Shown here: piece by piece, positions 5,085-27,353 of the stretch
Numbering within the stretch: position 1 is the stretch's first letter
How the letters are laid out: the number at the start of each line of letters is the position of its first letter
Source: Bacillota bacterium
GTDB taxonomy: Bacteria > Bacillota > UBA4882 > UBA8346
NCBI GenBank assembly: GCA_029974635.1
Contig: JARKQY010000043.1
Span: 124,001-188,000 of the forward strand
Length of the DNA: 64,000 nt
Direction of reading: 5' to 3'
Notes under the pieces: model-generated
Told to the model about the DNA's origin: nothing
Databases searched by the model: none
Seen by the model: the letters and a program-made list of their open reading frames with translations, nothing else
Program-made: the position numbers and the translations under genes

Positions 5085-5345
5085 TTAACGTGGTTCTACA
5101 ATGAATTTAATTGCAGTACGAATTTGACCATCAATATTAATTTCCGAAAAACCCGGAGTACAGATTAAATTTATTCCATTCGGCGCCACATAGCCGCGAG
5201 TGATGGCAATTGCTTTGACAGCTTGATTTACCGCCCCGGCCCCAACCGCCTGGACTTCCGCCACTCCTTTTTCACGCAATACGGCGGCTAAAGCGCCGGC
5301 AACAGATTTTGGGCTGGAATTTGCTGAAACTTTTAATACGTCCAT
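5085..5345 (-). CDS. spoVS: Stage V sporulation protein S
   Basis: SpoVS is a small conserved protein of the Alba-like fold needed at the late coat and cortex stage of spore formation in Bacillus; its biochemical role is not settled. The 86-residue product begins MDVLKVSANSSPKSVAGALA and contains the conserved GAGAVNQAVKAIAIARGY-like core (here with TRGY) and the C-terminal TAIKFIVEP. I chose the ATG at 5345 because a GGGGGG ribosome site lies seven bases upstream and family members start exactly here; the frame is open 26 codons further upstream. A SigH-like promoter precedes it and a terminator follows, so it is probably a single-gene unit. Confidence 0.95.
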   Translation of the reverse strand: MDVLKVSANSSPKSVAGALAAVLREKGVAEVQAVGAGAVNQAVKAIAITRGYVAPNGINLICTPGFSEINIDGQIRTAIKFIVEPR

Positions 5346-5384
5346 TAGAAAGCCCCCCATAAAAAATATAGCTACTTTCCTATC

Positions 5385-5414
5385 ATATTCAATTAGGGGG
5401 AAAAAAAAACCTAT
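5385..5414 (-). promoter_or_regulatory. Candidate SigH-type promoter of spoVS
   Basis: On the minus strand ATAGGTTTT (5414-5406), a 12-base spacer and ATTGAATAT (5393-5385) match the published SigH consensus (RnAGGAwWW, 12 or so, RnnGAATwW) except for one position in the -35. The predicted start would be about 30 bases before the spoVS ATG. B. subtilis spoVS is transcribed by SigH, which agrees. Single-site match, so tentative. Confidence 0.55.
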
Positions 5415-5426
5415 CTCAGACAAATC

Positions 5427-11714: not shown

Positions 11715-11759
11715 CGAAAATGAATGGGTATCCTAACTACACAGGAGGAGGTGAATCAA

Positions 11760-12113
11760 ATGGGCACTGGCCAAAAATCAAATACTCCGGTAGTTTTGGG
11801 AGCACAACAAGCTTTAAACAAATTCAAATATGAGATTGCCAACGAATTAAATATCGACACTTCCAAAGTTCAGGGTGGTTACTGGGGCTACGTCATAACC
11901 CGGGATACCGGCGCCATCGGTGGAAACATGGTCCGTCGCATGATCGAAGCCGCTGAACGGTCCCTTGCCGAGCAGACCTTTGCTGACGTAAACGCTGGTT
12001 TCCAAACCGCTTTGAGTAATCAAGCTCAAAACGCTCAGAGCTTCCAAACCCAGAATCAGAACCAAAATCAAAATCAGTTTAAATTCAATAATTTCGGTGG
12101 CTATAGCAGCTAA
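11760..12113 (+). CDS. Alpha/beta-type small acid-soluble spore protein
   Basis: DNA-binding protein that coats and protects the spore chromosome and is degraded at germination by the GPR protease. The 117-residue product has the conserved FKYEIANEL segment around the GPR cleavage site and the second DNA-contact block GGYWGYVITRDTGAIGGNMV with RRMIEAAE. The C-terminus is an unusual Gln/Asn-rich tail (repeated QN pairs, then FKFNNFGGYSS). The ATG at 11760 follows GAGGAGG; an upstream in-frame ATG at 11724 lacks a ribosome site. It is monocistronic, with its own terminator. Good evidence that the organism sporulates. Confidence 0.96.
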   Translation: MGTGQKSNTPVVLGAQQALNKFKYEIANELNIDTSKVQGGYWGYVITRDTGAIGGNMVRRMIEAAERSLAEQTFADVNAGFQTALSNQAQNAQSFQTQNQNQNQNQFKFNNFGGYSS

Positions 12114-21482: not shown

Positions 21483-22745
21483 TCAGAAGCTAAGTTTGCC
21501 TTTCACATAAAAGGTAGGCTTAATTATCTCATAACCAATACCGCCCATAGTATAAGTACCATTAAATTCACTTCCCTGGGAACCTCCAAAGAGAAGCACT
21601 CCCGTGGCAATGATGCAATCCAGATACGGCGCATACGAAAACTCCGGATAAAAAACATAACTACCGTCATTTAAATTCAATATCGTCGCTATGGTCAGTT
21701 TATAGTAATCGGAGAATTCCTTCTCCGCCGCTAAAAATAGGTAATCTTCCGCAAGCATGGGAAGCTCGCCGGTAAGAAGGCGCATAAAGTTGTAATTTAA
21801 TATATCAGCTTCACCTTTGCCTTGATGATGAAGTTCAAACCGGGTGGTAAGATTCATCTCTGAGATTGAGTAATCACCACCCAGGCTGATCTCGATTAAG
21901 TCTTTCAGATCGTTATCTCCAAACTCAAATGCAGTATCGGCGGCATTACGGGGGAGATTTAGCGCCATTTCGCCGTAAACCCCCACGTTTCCGATGGCGC
22001 CCACCCAATCCGCTCCCAGATAATGATTTTTCTGATAAGCGCCGTTCACATAAAGCACTTCTTTGATCCAGCTGACCGACCAATCGAATTTGCCCGAGGC
22101 CGACTGAAGTTTTAAGCCGTAAGGGATGTTTTCCGATTTGCCGTCGCTGATGAAGGCGGTATTTTTGGCAAGCTTCTCCTGGAAGGCCACATAGCCAAGA
22201 ATTGAATATTGCTCATTCAACGTGTAACTGGGAATGATCGCCGGCGTACCGGGGGTCTCTTCGGTCACCATGTCCAGAAAAGGAGGCAGGGACGCTTTGG
22301 AAGTCGGATTAAACACATAAGCCGTTCCCCAAGCCAAGGGGATCTTGCCGAACTGGATATTGAACTGCTTGATGGTCGCCGAGGCCCAGTAATGGTCCAG
22401 CTTTAGCTCCTGATTAAAATCGGTTAACGGATATTGATTCTGGTCAACCGGACTGAGGCCAATGCCGCCGAACAGGGCATAAGGGTTTAAATTCCCCATT
22501 TTAAAGGCATTTGAAAACTCCATATGGAATAAAAGGTTTTCGTTGGGCTTCCATTCCCCTTTCATACGCAGATAAATCTCATCGCCAAAATCCCCATCCA
22601 TAACATTTAAGTAATTTACAAGATACCCGTAAAGGCTAAAGCTCTCTTCGACCGGAGACGGATCGTCCAAGGCTATAGCCATGGTTGAAGTAAATAATGT
22701 TAGCAATATCGCAATCAACATTATAATAAATGCTTTCGTTTTCAT
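21483..22745 (-). CDS. Predicted outer-membrane beta-barrel protein
   Basis: 420 residues with a clear signal peptide (1-25, cleavage after AIA). The mature part is rich in alternating polar and hydrophobic strands with aromatic belts (YLRMKGEWKP, LLFHMEFSNAF, FNIQFGKIPLAWG, YYKLTIATILNLN). The last residues, YVKGKLSF, end in Phe with hydrophobics at alternate positions, the signature recognised by the BAM assembly machine. This is porin or transporter-like and implies an outer membrane. It is the last gene of MMPL, LolA-like and barrel; similar three-part cassettes are known from Gram-negatives. GGAGGG precedes the ATG. The specific family is not identified. Confidence 0.8.
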   Translation of the reverse strand: MKTKAFIIMLIAILLTLFTSTMAIALDDPSPVEESFSLYGYLVNYLNVMDGDFGDEIYLRMKGEWKPNENLLFHMEFSNAFKMGNLNPYALFGGIGLSPVDQNQYPLTDFNQELKLDHYWASATIKQFNIQFGKIPLAWGTAYVFNPTSKASLPPFLDMVTEETPGTPAIIPSYTLNEQYSILGYVAFQEKLAKNTAFISDGKSENIPYGLKLQSASGKFDWSVSWIKEVLYVNGAYQKNHYLGADWVGAIGNVGVYGEMALNLPRNAADTAFEFGDNDLKDLIEISLGGDYSISEMNLTTRFELHHQGKGEADILNYNFMRLLTGELPMLAEDYLFLAAEKEFSDYYKLTIATILNLNDGSYVFYPEFSYAPYLDCIIATGVLLFGGSQGSEFNGTYTMGGIGYEIIKPTFYVKGKLSF

Positions 22746-22800
22746 GAATCATCCCTCCTTATTTACTTATTTCCGGCTTACCTTCAACTCAAGCAAATCT

Positions 22801-23562
22801 TTATTTATAAAACTGGCCGGGGTTGAAATATTTTTCGTCGATGGGCAGATCGTATTCGGTTTTGGTCATCAGAACCACCGTCTTACTATTCTTGACATGA
22901 TTGGTCATGGTCATTTTAGTCGGCACATCCCGCCCGCTGATTCGGCTGATCTCATCCATGGTAAGGTTTTTGCAAAGACCCTCTTTTTGCTTATAGTAAT
23001 CGATGCGCAAAATCTGATAGTCCTTTTTTCTGACGGTGATGACCAGTTTGACATAACTGGATTGTTTCTCCGGCAAGGGCAGTGCCTGAATAACCCAACT
23101 ATCATTTTGCTCGGCGGCAATTGCAAAGGAATATTTCTCCTGCCATTTACCGGCTTCCATGTCTTCATTGGAGAAATCGCCGCCAATCCCGCCCATGGAC
23201 TCACTCTTTGATTTGCTGGCAATCTTTCTTACCCGGCCGGTGGAGGGGAAATAGATCCATTGGTCCTGGTTCCGGGAAAGAATACACAAACCCTTGATGG
23301 ATTTCGGGTTAAGCACCGCCATATAACTGTATTCATCGCCTTTTTGGTAGGAAAGCATCTCCATTTTCCGGCCCGTCTTTTCGTCGTCTTTATCCGGGTA
23401 TACAATCATGCTCATCTGGCTTTTGCTGGTCGTAAAGTTCTGTTTCGCTTCCACATTTTTGATGATGGAATCCGCTGTTTCCCTGGTTCCATCTTCCGCC
23501 ATGCTCAACGGGATCATTAACAAAAGACATCCGATGAAAAGTGACATCGTTTTATTCAGCAT
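22801..23562 (-). CDS. Outer membrane lipoprotein-sorting (LolA-like) protein
   Basis: 253 residues with a signal peptide (1-22) and a single soluble domain of the LolA-like type (COG2834), a half-barrel that shuttles lipid or lipoprotein across the periplasm. Recognisable features: ESM/SKSQMSMIVY strands, KGLCILSRNQDQWIYFPSTGRVRKI, and the C-terminal SKTVVLMTKTEYDLPIDEKYFNPGQF, all typical of the family members found next to RND/MMPL genes. It overlaps the transporter gene by 11 bases, indicating coupled translation. It likely hands cargo from the MMPL protein to the barrel, which is inference. AGGAGGG lies seven bases before the ATG. Confidence 0.88.
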   Translation of the reverse strand: MLNKTMSLFIGCLLLMIPLSMAEDGTRETADSIIKNVEAKQNFTTSKSQMSMIVYPDKDDEKTGRKMEMLSYQKGDEYSYMAVLNPKSIKGLCILSRNQDQWIYFPSTGRVRKIASKSKSESMGGIGGDFSNEDMEAGKWQEKYSFAIAAEQNDSWVIQALPLPEKQSSYVKLVITVRKKDYQILRIDYYKQKEGLCKNLTMDEISRISGRDVPTKMTMTNHVKNSKTVVLMTKTEYDLPIDEKYFNPGQFYK

Positions 23563-26320
23563 TGATATTCCCTCCTAAAATTTGATCGGTTGATGAGTTG
23601 GATTGGCTATTTTTTTTGAGAAATCCCAGCAGGGCCGGTTCGATGAAGATCGCCGTCAGCAGTGAGGTCGTGATGCCGACAAACAGGATCATCCCCATGG
23701 AGGAGATCGCCGCCCAGGTGCCCACCAGGGCGAGGGAGCCGAACCCGAACATGGTCGTCAGGGCCGAAAGGGTGACCGCTTTCCCCGTAGTCTTGTAAAC
23801 CTCGGGTATATCGGGTTCAAGGAGATAGCGGCAGACAAAGTGGACGCCATAGTTGATTCCCAGGCCAATAACCAGGGGGACCATGGTGAGATTGATCATG
23901 TTGAGTTTCAAGCCCAATAACGGATAGATCCCGAGCATCCAGATCATGCCCAAGACCAGGGGGATGGTGGCGATGAGCGATGCCTTGAAATTTCGCAACG
24001 TGAACAGTATGATGAGGAACATGAAGAAAAAGATATACAGGGCTGCTTTTCCCGCCGAGTTGATCAGCTCATTTTGCCAGATGGCGACAATGGTGGTTAA
24101 CCCCGTGATATTCGTGGAGATGTTGCCCAGTCTTTCATTGTATCGTTGGATTTTTTCGCGGCTGGCCAGCACGTTATCCTTGGGAAACGCGGTAACCAGG
24201 TTCTCTTGCCGCTCGGCATCCATGAATTGATTGACGATGTTCCCGGGCAGATCGGCCAGGGTAATTGGGCGCGTGATGTTGGTCATGCTTGAGACGATCC
24301 GGTCCATCTCCGGGGCAAAATGGCGGTCCAACTGGGTGAGTTTGACGGCGCTGAGTTGCGGCTCCGCCCGCAACCGGGCGATCACGCGCTGGAATACTTC
24401 CCGGCCCGGCGCGCCGGCCTCGGCGCCGAAGACCTCGCGCACGATCTCATTTCGTTTCTTGACGATCTTGTTGTCTTCGCCGAGTCCGGCGATGGAGAGA
24501 TCGCCGATCTCAATGACGTTATACTCGAGACGCTGGATCTCATCGATAAACCGCTGGACATCCTGGCGGGTGAGGGTGGCGGTTTGATATCGCGGTCCCA
24601 TCCGGCGGAATTTGGCGATCTCATTCAGCCTCGCCTCCTGCTCGCCGGGCGGGGCGATGAACTGTGAAATGGAACGGACCTCGGCAATGGAGCTTTCCTG
24701 TTCGAGCTGCTCGGTGAGCTGCCGCGCTGCTTCGATGCTGTCGCACGAAACCATGGAACTGATCGGCATGAGACCGAACTTATCCAGGATTTTATGATAG
24801 GTTTTTACCGCCGGCATCTGTTGCGGCTCCAGTTTCATCATGTCATACTCGAAACCCAGGTTGAACATGGATACGATGAATACCAGGGTAAGGGTGATCG
24901 CCACCCCGGCCGTGAACCGCTTCCGCTTGCTCATGAACCCGGCCAGGCCGGCCAGGAAATCGTAGTTTATCCTGGGCAGCCGGGTGGGCTTGGGGTCTTT
25001 TGGCGAGAACCAGACCAGCAGGGCCGGCAGGACGAACGTCATAGCCAGGTAGCAGCACAGGATGCCCATTCCGGCGAGCAAACCGAATTGGGCGAAGGCT
25101 TTGGAGCCGGTGGCCGCCAGGACGAAAAACGCGGTGGCCGTCGTGGCGGCTGCCAGCATGGTGCCGATACCCGCCTTGGCAAAGGTTTCTTTTAGAGCGT
25201 CTTTCGGACTGAGGCCGCGATCCATAAACTCGCTATAGTTAGTGATGGTCTGAATGCCAAAGTCATCGCCCATGCCGATCAGCAGCGCGGCCATCATACT
25301 GGTGATAATGGTGATCTCTTTGAAGGTAATCCCCAGGAGTCCATAGTTGAAAACGATCCCGACCACCAGCGCGATCAGATAGAAGATGATGAACCGCAGT
25401 TGCCGGTATGAAAAGATGGTGATGGCGGCGACCAGGATAAACGCCAGGATGGAAGGAACCATGAGATCAAAGTTCATGGCCAGGTTCTCATCGGCTTGCA
25501 TGCCGATGTCGCCCGCGTAGCCGATGGCCAGCCCCGGGAAATCGCCCTCCACCGCCGCGATGGTCGCCCGGATCTCGGCCATCAGCCGGTCGATCTTTTC
25601 CATCTCGATCAGGTTGAAGTTGGGATAGATGGACATGAGCAGCATGGAATAATCCGGCGCGTAGGTGTATTCATCGCCGTACACGAAGGTCTCGGCCAAT
25701 CGTCTGGCCTCGGGGGCGGCCCCCTCCGTTCCCGGAGCCTCCAGGTATTCCCTGAGCCCGGTAAAGAACGACGCCAGGTTGTTCAGCATCTGCACCGCTT
25801 CGTTTTCCTGGCTGCCCGTCTCGATCTGCTCCTCGGCTTCCTCGCCCGTATAGATCTTTTCAAAGGAATCGTTGAGCGAGGTGACGAACGGAACCAGGTT
25901 GAGATTGGCAAACGAAGCCCGCGTATCCGCCAGGTCTTTCTCTTTCTGTAATATCAGGCCCCATTGGGTGATGAAGTCCCGGTCAACCTTGAGATCGATG
26001 GCATGGATCAGTTGCATCGCCTGCCCGTTGGCCTCGAGTTTCCCGGCGAAGGCCTCGGCGGCGGCGGCCATCTTCTCTTTGTCCTTGCCTTCGAAGGCGA
26101 TTAGCAGCGAACTGCCGCCGGAAAATTTCTCGGTGATCCGGTCAAAGCTGGCGACTTGAGGGTATTCCATGGGGAGCATGTCTTTGAGCTGCGTCCGAGT
26201 CTGGATGTTACCCATGGCGATCAGGCTCAAGATGAAAAGCACCAGGGCTATCACCGGGATGATCTTGTGGTACCGGGTGATGAACCCCGCCAGATGCGCC
26301 ATTAATTTTTGGCCTTTCAT
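23552..26320 (-). CDS. MMPL/RND family transporter, HpnN-like
   Basis: A 922-residue RND-superfamily exporter with two repeats, each one membrane helix, a large exoplasmic domain and five more helices. First half: helix at 20-37, loop to about 290, then helices with the GMGDDFGIQ proton-relay motif. Second half repeats this with GLGINYGVHFV. Architecture matches proteins annotated as MMPL or hopanoid/lipid RND (HpnN) exporters. Likely exports a lipid or hydrophobic molecule with the LolA-like partner. The gene looks far more GC-rich than its neighbours (44 of 60 bases G or C in 25501-25560), so it may be recently acquired. GGAGG lies seven bases upstream. Confidence 0.92.
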   Translation of the reverse strand: MKGQKLMAHLAGFITRYHKIIPVIALVLFILSLIAMGNIQTRTQLKDMLPMEYPQVASFDRITEKFSGGSSLLIAFEGKDKEKMAAAAEAFAGKLEANGQAMQLIHAIDLKVDRDFITQWGLILQKEKDLADTRASFANLNLVPFVTSLNDSFEKIYTGEEAEEQIETGSQENEAVQMLNNLASFFTGLREYLEAPGTEGAAPEARRLAETFVYGDEYTYAPDYSMLLMSIYPNFNLIEMEKIDRLMAEIRATIAAVEGDFPGLAIGYAGDIGMQADENLAMNFDLMVPSILAFILVAAITIFSYRQLRFIIFYLIALVVGIVFNYGLLGITFKEITIITSMMAALLIGMGDDFGIQTITNYSEFMDRGLSPKDALKETFAKAGIGTMLAAATTATAFFVLAATGSKAFAQFGLLAGMGILCCYLAMTFVLPALLVWFSPKDPKPTRLPRINYDFLAGLAGFMSKRKRFTAGVAITLTLVFIVSMFNLGFEYDMMKLEPQQMPAVKTYHKILDKFGLMPISSMVSCDSIEAARQLTEQLEQESSIAEVRSISQFIAPPGEQEARLNEIAKFRRMGPRYQTATLTRQDVQRFIDEIQRLEYNVIEIGDLSIAGLGEDNKIVKKRNEIVREVFGAEAGAPGREVFQRVIARLRAEPQLSAVKLTQLDRHFAPEMDRIVSSMTNITRPITLADLPGNIVNQFMDAERQENLVTAFPKDNVLASREKIQRYNERLGNISTNITGLTTIVAIWQNELINSAGKAALYIFFFMFLIILFTLRNFKASLIATIPLVLGMIWMLGIYPLLGLKLNMINLTMVPLVIGLGINYGVHFVCRYLLEPDIPEVYKTTGKAVTLSALTTMFGFGSLALVGTWAAISSMGMILFVGITTSLLTAIFIEPALLGFLKKNSQSNSSTDQILGGNINAE

Positions 26321-26476
26321 GGTTCAACCTCCTTTTTAAATGAAAATATTAATTTTAAGTAAAATACTAATTATGGGTCTTTTTTCACCTCCCGGACAAG
26401 TCATGGACTACTTGGGGTAAATACACGGTTGAAATGATGTTTTCGGAAGAATCGGTGTCTCCCTGGAGCTGATATG

Positions 26477-26495
26477 TTGACTGTTAATCAGTCAA
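26477..26495. promoter_or_regulatory. TetR-type operator O1 before MMPL operon
   Basis: TTGACTGTTAATCAGTCAA: perfect 7-bp arms TTGACTG and CAGTCAA around a 5-base centre. It lies 157 bases before the MMPL start, between tetR and MMPL. Two more copies follow at 26549 and 27291. Confidence 0.75.
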
Positions 26496-26548
26496 TGAGA
26501 ATCGAAAAAAATAGCCATGGATTCCCATCCGAACACTTGGACAACTTA

Positions 26549-26567
26549 CCGACTGTTAATCAGTCAA
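26549..26567. promoter_or_regulatory. TetR-type operator O2 before MMPL operon
   Basis: CCGACTGTTAATCAGTCAA, 54 bases beyond O1 centre to centre 72, with arms GACTG/CAGTC intact. The second site in the tetR-MMPL intergenic region suggests co-operative repression. Confidence 0.7.
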
Positions 26568-26599
26568 TGGTATGGTAAAAATTTTTATCCCGTGCTTGA

Positions 26600-27244
26600 T
26601 TAGCCGGGCCGCTCGTTGTGTAAACCGTCAATCCGCAGGCTGCCTTTGGGGGCGCCCAGCGCTTTTTCGATCACTGAAAAACCGGCGCGGAGTTTGTTCA
26701 CAAACTGCTCCGTATCGCTTGGCAATATTTTAAATATGCTGGGCATATACCCGATCCCGGTCAGCAAAACTTCCGCTGTTTCCAGGGGATGACTGACATC
26801 GAACACTTTCTCCCGAACGCCTTGCTCGATGATTTTTACGAATATGGAGATCATTTCATCCAAAAACTTATGGGTCAGCCGGTAATGCAATAATTCATTG
26901 GATGCTTGGTGCATATAATGAACAATTTTCTCTCTTTGGAAGGTGGTTAATAACACTGAGGAAAACATATTGTTTAACTTTTGAATGGCGGTCAGCTGTT
27001 CATCATTAGCGATCAGGCGGAATTCTGAAATCGAATTGTCACCGAAACACTCGATCACCGCATCCAAGACCTCAGTCTTGGATTTAAAATAATAATAGAA
27101 TAAACCCTGGGCTACTCCAACCTTGTTGACGATATCGCTGACGGTAGTGTCTTCGAAGCCTTTGGTGAAAAAAAGCTCCTCGGCGGCGGCGATGATTTCA
27201 TTCTTCCGCACCTCTGGCTCTTTGGTAATCCGGATTTTTGCCAT
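26600..27244 (-). CDS. TetR/AcrR family regulator of the export operon
   Basis: 214-residue repressor. The N-terminal DNA-binding domain (about 12-58) holds the TetR helix-turn-helix: IIAAAEELFFTKGFEDTTVSDIV, then GVAQGLFYYYFKSKTEVLDA. The C-terminal 150 residues form a ligand domain without recognised specificity. The gene reads in the same direction as the MMPL operon 280 bases ahead of it. Three near-identical palindromes, one upstream of it and two before MMPL, make it the likely repressor of both. By analogy with other TetR-controlled exporters, the ligand is probably an exported compound or a lipid precursor. GGGAG lies six bases upstream. Confidence 0.92.
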   Translation of the reverse strand: MAKIRITKEPEVRKNEIIAAAEELFFTKGFEDTTVSDIVNKVGVAQGLFYYYFKSKTEVLDAVIECFGDNSISEFRLIANDEQLTAIQKLNNMFSSVLLTTFQREKIVHYMHQASNELLHYRLTHKFLDEMISIFVKIIEQGVREKVFDVSHPLETAEVLLTGIGYMPSIFKILPSDTEQFVNKLRAGFSVIEKALGAPKGSLRIDGLHNERPG

Positions 27245-27290
27245 TACGAACTCCCTATAAATTTTTGAATCTAATACAAATTATAGTTCA

Positions 27291-27309
27291 CTGACTATTA
27301 ATCAGTCAA
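27291..27309. promoter_or_regulatory. TetR-type operator O3 upstream of tetR
   Basis: CTGACTATTAATCAGTCAA, 47 bases before the tetR ATG, matching O1 at 17 of 19 positions with TGACT and AGTCA arms intact. Supports autoregulation. Confidence 0.7.
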
Positions 27310-27321
27310 TATAGAATTTAA

Positions 27322-27353
27322 GAAAACCCCGAAATATTATTTTCGGGGTTTTC
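27322..27353. terminator. Terminator after groEL
   Basis: GAAAACCCCGAAA (27322-27334) pairs perfectly with TTTCGGGGTTTTC (27341-27353) with a 6-base loop; the minus strand continues TTAAATTC. It closes groESL 27 bases past the groEL stop. Confidence 0.85.

Follow-up and report, generated by a model that had tools for sequence, protein, structure and literature searches.

In a 64,000-nucleotide stretch of a draft Bacillota genome (contig JARKQY010000043.1, positions 124,001 to 188,000 of the forward strand; hereafter the window), we found a four-gene cassette that probably encodes a TetR-repressed, proton-driven line for the export of a hydrophobic molecule across both membranes. Its carrier and barrel turn out to be the constant part of a module whose engine is either an RND pump or a MacB/FtsX-type ABC transporter. 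The cassette genes, all on the minus strand within 21483-27309, and the element that borders them are:

27322..27350, minus strand, terminator-like hairpin (AACCCCGAAA-ATAAT-ATTTCGGGGTTTTCTT) 3' of groEL, seen in the sequence
26600..27244, minus strand, tetR, a TetR-family regulator of 214 aa (PF00440, 61.7 bits; TetR_C_39, 37.5 bits)
23552..26320, minus strand, MMPL/RND inner-membrane pump of 922 aa, HpnN-like (PF03176, 113.3 bits)
22801..23562, minus strand, LolA_like periplasmic carrier of 253 aa with an N-terminal signal peptide (PF17131, 156.5 bits)
21483..22745, minus strand, outer-membrane beta-barrel of 420 aa with a signal peptide, about 18 strands and a C-terminal Phe (AlphaFold2, Foldseek)

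The pump and carrier genes overlap by 11 bp and a gap of 55 bp separates the carrier gene from the barrel gene, while tetR lies 279 bp from the pump gene and 135 bp from groEL. The terminator-like hairpin after groEL would set the cassette apart from groESL; it has a short T tail and is not among the elements listed by our terminator scan. A first-pass annotation of this DNA had described a trans-envelope export cassette of four genes. All four were found on the minus strand at the coordinates above, with the Pfam domains TetR_N, MMPL and LolA_like above their cut-offs, and the export assignment is backed by the gene make-up, the models of barrel and carrier, and the conservation of the trio formed by pump, carrier and barrel. 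Since this trio is conserved in other phyla, chance is excluded as its origin.

We modelled the barrel with AlphaFold2 from a 37-member alignment and obtained a signal helix followed by about 18 long antiparallel strands (pLDDT 88.6, pTM 0.82). Structure prediction had been chosen beforehand as a check on the barrel assignment, which the model bears out, and the signal peptide was recognised by visual inspection and from the model's helix. The terminal ...YVKGKLSF, from which the protein had first been called a barrel, was confirmed, and its final Phe is almost fully conserved (90% or more) across 37 homologues. The best 50 Foldseek matches in the PDB were essentially all outer-membrane barrels, among them porins, OmpM1 of Veillonella, MOMP and AlgE (TM 0.4-0.53 by query length), with no close specific match in these 50. 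Searches of Pfam and NCBIfam with the barrel gave no Pfam match and no meaningful NCBIfam match. PF06980 (DUF1302) does not match the window barrel and matches 7 of the 37 aligned family members (best E 6e-11), an indirect link by which the window barrel may be a divergent relative of DUF1302 barrels. The predicted fold class is firm and the specific family is not; a general porin fold alone is no proof of a transfer function.

The carrier is LolA_like both by its PF17131 score, for which the cut-off was 30 bits, and by a predicted LolA-type fold (AlphaFold2, pLDDT 89.9). The nearest folds to this model were 9tp6, which is LolA3 (TM 0.78/0.82), 4z48, 3bk5 and 3buu, with DUF1329 structures among the closest. 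Since its model most resembles DUF1329 structures and P. gingivalis LolA3, the carrier likely has a hydrophobic groove. With the NCBIfam LolA3 model NF053579 it scored 20.5 bits against a cut-off of 83, and the genome gave no match to canonical LolA (PF03548).

The pump belongs to the MMPL family (PF03176, cut-off 20.5 bits), its score being spread over two stretches that represent two repeats. In keeping with its first description as an HpnN-like RND pump, it could be aligned with HpnN over its full length (PDB 5khn/6wu0, E about 1e-30 to 1e-29), and it scored 342.5 bits with the HpnN model TIGR03480 against a cut-off of 751.85, and 232 bits with the BstA model against 1400. By these scores the predicted pump is HpnN-like, yet not HpnN, and is placed in the HpnN branch, similar in kind to AmeD and BstA. 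In HpnN, an Asp in TM4 and another in TM10 form the proton relay. The motifs of the window pump are GMGDDFG in TM4 and GLGINYG in TM10: the TM10 Asp is kept in 31 of the 32 cassette pumps compared and replaced by Asn in the window pump alone, which retains the TM4 Asp and has one additional Asp beside it. Together, the TM10 Asn and the extra TM4 Asp suggest that proton coupling has possibly changed; the charge may have shifted, or the coupling may be altered or weakened. A distant pump among the 32 (L054) lacks the TM4 Asp.

Three near-identical palindromes, putative operators, flank the regulator gene:

27293..27309, minus strand, operator 1, TTGACTGATTAATAGTC, palindrome before tetR
26551..26567, minus strand, operator 2, TTGACTGATTAACAGTC, palindrome between tetR and the pump gene
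26479..26495, minus strand, operator 3, TTGACTGATTAACAGTC, palindrome upstream of the pump gene

The sequence TTGACTGATTAAYAGTC is present exactly three times, with one copy ahead of tetR and two ahead of the pump gene, and the count expected for the operator pattern in the window was 0.24 sites (up to 3 mismatches). Across the whole 4.29 Mb genome the pattern was matched three times with at most 2 mismatches, always at the cassette locus, and a reversed control pattern gave 0 matches in the genome at the same stringency. TTGACT in operator 1 is the -35 box of a promoter (TTGACT-18-TATAAT) in front of tetR, the best sigma-70-like promoter of the region (11/12 consensus). TetR is probably the repressor of the cassette, and the operator pattern fits a local, self-limiting repressor whose binding is predicted from these sites. 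As the putative operator occurs at the cassette locus only, the TetR regulon names no biosynthesis genes and was ruled out as a clue to the cargo.

The window also holds two sporulation genes:

11724-12110, plus strand, SASP (PF00269, 78.6 bits)
within 5085-5426, minus strand, SpoVS-like ORF, recognised by motif rather than by profile

The genome is a draft of 59 contigs (4.3 Mb; 88% complete, estimated contamination 1.6%). It encodes Omp85/BamA with POTRA domains, TamB, two OmpH proteins, LpxD, LpxA, LpxC and SpoIVA; the genes for Omp85, TamB, the two OmpH proteins and LpxD are clustered, with an S55 (SpoIVB-type) peptidase gene beside tamB, and those for LpxA and LpxC lie elsewhere. The LptD model PF04453 had no match in the genome, and this model matches only two proteobacterial controls and misses several diderm controls. 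Omp85 was present in all sampled members of the class (29 of 29, own genome included) versus 7 of the 32 genomes sampled elsewhere in the phylum. Omp85/BamA, TamB, OmpH and the lipid A genes place the organism with the diderm Bacillota, and the SASP, SpoIVA and the SpoVS-like ORF place it with the endospore formers. This gene content supports the diderm endospore former that the first-pass annotation had proposed from its SASP and spoVS, both recovered here, and from the barrel, and the search of the genome for BamA that it had suggested was successful. Diderm status is not new among Firmicutes, the known lineages being Negativicutes, Halanaerobiales and Limnochordia (PMC10628300). That the bin is mixed and the envelope genes are foreign to the spore former, as might be feared of a fragmented and incomplete draft, is very hard to credit given the low contamination estimate: the cassette shares one contig with the SASP and the SpoVS-like ORF, the contig of BamA and TamB carries the S55 peptidase gene, and Omp85 was found in every class member sampled.

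We scanned a genome collection with the barrel and obtained 48 loci, from Spirochaetota, Fibrobacterota, Delongbacteria, Fidelibacterota, KSB1, Cloacimonadota, Bacillota and others, most of them in the order MMPL-LolA_like-barrel. Because no cassette homologue was found in nine sampled genomes of the host's own family, the cassette is, on this sampling, an accessory trait. In a joint pump-carrier-barrel tree, the window and three cassettes from its class grouped together (support 96/99) among mainly spirochaete sequences, and a tree of the barrel only placed the window with other phyla, a single Bacillota clade not being rejected (p-AU 0.49). Transfer from Spirochaetota was considered and set aside, the joint tree grouping the window with its own class and the barrel data allowing one Bacillota clade. 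No cargo biosynthesis gene was linked to the cassette in the window, and none was recurrent in homologous loci. Neighbouring genes recurred only within particular lineages (in Fibrobacterota, GntR and SPFH/Band_7 genes; in Delongbacteria, genes for an M20 peptidase and a T2SSE ATPase) and, tried as a guide to the cargo, name none.

The genome has six PF17131 genes above the cut-off, and all six adjoin a barrel. An RND (MMPL) engine serves two of these modules (window, C3) and an ABC engine the other four (C5 twice, C21, C47), each of which encodes an ABC ATPase plus a pair of FtsX/MacB-type permeases. The barrels of the ABC sister modules belong to the family of the window barrel, not to Omp85. 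Neither the six carrier-barrel modules, four of them with an ABC engine, nor the confinement of the TetR operators to the locus had been seen in the earlier annotation.

To place these modules among relatives, we used 57 PF17131 loci of related genomes, picked by PF17131 and not by the barrel except for two cassettes, and counted as engines those on the same strand within 4.5 kb of the PF17131 gene. An engine was present at 56 of the 57 loci (19 RND, 36 ABC and 1 with both near) and a barrel was detected at 43, three of the misses falling at stretch or contig ends. In 20 genomes of other phyla, which were reached through barrel matches and are not a random sample, engine and barrel were each present at 40 of 41 PF17131 loci; when the 8 loci first recruited via the barrel are left aside, each was present at 32 of the remaining 33. 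The carrier tree (101 rows) required 2 engine changes versus 33 in shuffles, and the barrel tree 4 versus 29, the shuffles in both cases ignoring relatedness. Two engine changes over several phyla suggest that carrier and engine have been inherited together, as would be expected of physical partners, and free swapping of engines was rejected on the same tree. Of the 29 genomes sampled in the phylum that have PF17131 carriers, 28 also have Omp85, and outside the class the co-occurrence gave p 0.025 with no correction for kinship.

From these data we put forward a broader and tentative proposal, in which our confidence falls somewhat short of even: that PF17131 proteins are not general lipoprotein chaperones but carriers of widespread, unrecognised engine-carrier-barrel export machines, in which a dedicated barrel replaces LolB. 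Up to about ten parallel lines per cell would move separate cargoes and would make up the main carrier-based outer-membrane traffic in this diderm Bacillota class, whose sampled member has no canonical LolA, and the engine would have been switched once or twice early and co-inherited since. The literature searched (mostly without subscription papers) yielded no statement of the carrier-based rule, of one carrier family paired with two classes of engine, or of carrier and engine being co-inherited, an absence that is no proof of novelty. Already known are the combination of RND pump, LolA-type carrier and barrel, from AmeABCD, and that of ABC transporter, LolA-like carrier and barrel, proposed for Borrelia (PMC13078400). 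The question addressed is how hydrophobic cargo is transported to the outer membrane in diderms without canonical Lol, diderm Bacillota included. Under the rule, every LolA_like protein would have an identified engine and an identified partner in the outer membrane. The rule also suggests where the partners of orphan carriers like LolA3 may be sought, and it would allow the 'Lol' clusters without LolB described in Halanaerobiales to be read in another way.

For the window cassette, we envisage that a TetR ligand, when present, would take TetR off the three operators and allow the pump-carrier-barrel operon to be transcribed. The pump would then extract the hydrophobic molecule from the outer leaflet of the inner membrane; the LolCDE-like ABC engine that serves related carrier-barrel pairs supports such extraction as a shared step. 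The carrier would shield the molecule in its groove while crossing the periplasm and would dock on its own dedicated barrel, which, in LolB's place, would release the cargo into the outer membrane or pass it through. We infer the order of hand-over, the proton coupling, the repression, the outward direction and the type of cargo, the last two by analogy with AmeABCD, a deletion of which leaves the mutant less tolerant of monoterpenes and accumulating more Nile Red (PMC6394551). These genetics favour export and argue against inward uptake, in which the barrel would import a hydrophobic nutrient (hydrocarbon, sterol or fatty acid) and the pump would draw it towards the inner membrane. Although DUF1302/DUF1329 genes turn up in the hydrocarbon-degrader literature, no catabolic genes are recurrently linked in homologous loci and a MacB-type ABC transporter, an engine of an export type, drives about half of the sister modules, and we judge uptake improbable.

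As to the cargo of the proposed export line, a conditional small hydrophobic compound is more likely than a structural lipid, given that the cassette has a regulator of its own and is missing from all nine genomes sampled in the family; with no linked biosynthesis gene, the cargo rests on analogy. The same machine could instead export a structural envelope lipid (terpenoid, glycolipid or polyketide-like) made elsewhere in the genome, as the full-length alignability of the pump to HpnN and the fact that HpnN and BstA, also of the MMPL family, transport lipids (PMC10942540) would suggest. We consider this rather unlikely, though worth keeping in view, since no lipid genes are linked and both the dedicated TetR and the absence from the nine sampled family members are unlike a core envelope lipid pathway. 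A hopanoid in particular is an unlikely cargo, because the pump lies under the HpnN cut-off and no squalene-hopene cyclase (PF13243) was found in the genome, at its 88% completeness.

The cassette could also be an alternative Lol system, in which the pump would stand in for LolCDE and the barrel for LolB, with the LolA_like protein as the lipoprotein carrier. The LolA-type fold of the carrier, the lack of a PF03548 match in the genome and the resemblance of the sister modules' MacB/FtsX-type ABC transporter to LolCDE are consistent with this; the missing Lol of diderm Terrabacteria is an open question (PMC10665443), and an ABC-LolA cluster of Halanaerobiales has been interpreted as Lol without LolB (PMC5007114). 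However, the RND pumps of this branch, HpnN, BstA, AmeD and MmpL3, are tied to small lipids or hydrophobic molecules and not to lipoproteins, and six parallel modules together with TetR control suit several specific cargoes over one housekeeping sorter. LolA3 of P. gingivalis shows hardly any LolB binding (PMC13103446), and F. johnsoniae lacking lolA3 is unaffected in gliding and type IX secretion (PMC11885536). We therefore regard lipoprotein sorting as quite unlikely and retain export of a hydrophobic molecule as the probable function.

The cassette shares with LolCDE-LolA-LolB the logic of engine, carrier and outer-membrane acceptor as well as the carrier fold, and differs in that an RND pump replaces the ABC transporter and a barrel replaces LolB, in a genome where canonical LolA was not detected. 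We know of no LolA-type carrier and barrel in the HpnN operon. The window pump is homologous to HpnN (TIGR03480, 5khn/6wu0) over its full length, yet reaches 342 of 752 bits and belongs to a host with no detected squalene-hopene cyclase. BstABC of Methylococcus capsulatus (PMC10942540) likewise has an MMPL pump together with the periplasmic lipid binder BstB, of the phosphonate-binding type, and the outer-membrane-associated BstC, which is neither a LolA nor a barrel. LolA3 of Bacteroidota (9tp6) is among the two solved folds closest to the carrier, and the accessible parts of its reports (PMC13103446, PMC11885536) mention no engine or barrel partner. In Borrelia, BBJ23-29 (PMC13078400) similarly clusters a LolA-like carrier, a MacB-like transporter and an outer-membrane barrel; with its ABC engine, Omp85-family barrel and TPR proteins, it is nearer to the ABC sister modules of this genome than to the window cassette. 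The closest studied system is AmeABCD of Castellaniella defragrans (PMC6394551), which consists of an HAE3 RND pump, a DUF1329 LolA-type carrier and a DUF1302 barrel, AmeA. An RND pump and a LolA-superfamily carrier are common to both, and the DUF1302 link of the window barrel is indirect. While AmeABCD has a larger DUF1329 carrier, an extra periplasmic AmeC and a place in a monoterpene catabolic island, the window cassette has neither AmeC nor catabolic genes and instead combines a PF17131 carrier with a TetR and its putative operators.

The RND pump of the window's cassette carries the following motifs in its fourth and tenth transmembrane segments:

25250-25276, minus strand: TM4 motif GMGDDFG (pump residues 349-357)
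23837-23866, minus strand: TM10 motif GLGINYG (pump residues 819-828)

When the motifs were compared among cassette pumps, Asn in TM10 was found in the window pump only, and all other pumps carried Asp at this site (31/31). At four Fibrobacterota loci (L042:1881-3249, L045, L049 and L052), two genes lie upstream of the pump gene, one encoding a GntR regulator and the other an SPFH/Band_7 protein.

The module of PF17131 (LolA_like) carrier, barrel and engine, in which the engine is either an RND pump or an ABC transporter, is strongly expanded in some Spirochaetota, since the genomes G062, G063 and G064 have 11-12 PF17131 matches each. Both engine types also occurred side by side: in a class relative, the TetR-MMPL-LolA_like-barrel cassette has an ABC-LolA_like-barrel module immediately upstream (L081:3883-15000; G013:C22), and a Chitinivibrionales genome bears ABC-carrier-barrel and RND-carrier-barrel modules in tandem on the same strand (L152:3560-13765; G076). 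In the source genome, two ABC-type carrier-barrel modules are consecutive (L071:1085-13721; G000:C5), the first having the order TetR-barrel-ATPase-permease-permease-carrier, which differs from all others. Elsewhere, only the last 85 residues of the cassette's barrel are left, beside a gene for TetR, and pump and carrier are both missing (L011:7657-7914; G022:C27); this remnant is probably a decayed cassette.

The source genome additionally holds a sporulation-type domain inside its outer-membrane cluster (L075:682-7179; G000:C16), where the gene adjoining tamB, close to bamA, encodes an S55 (SpoIVB-type) peptidase domain.
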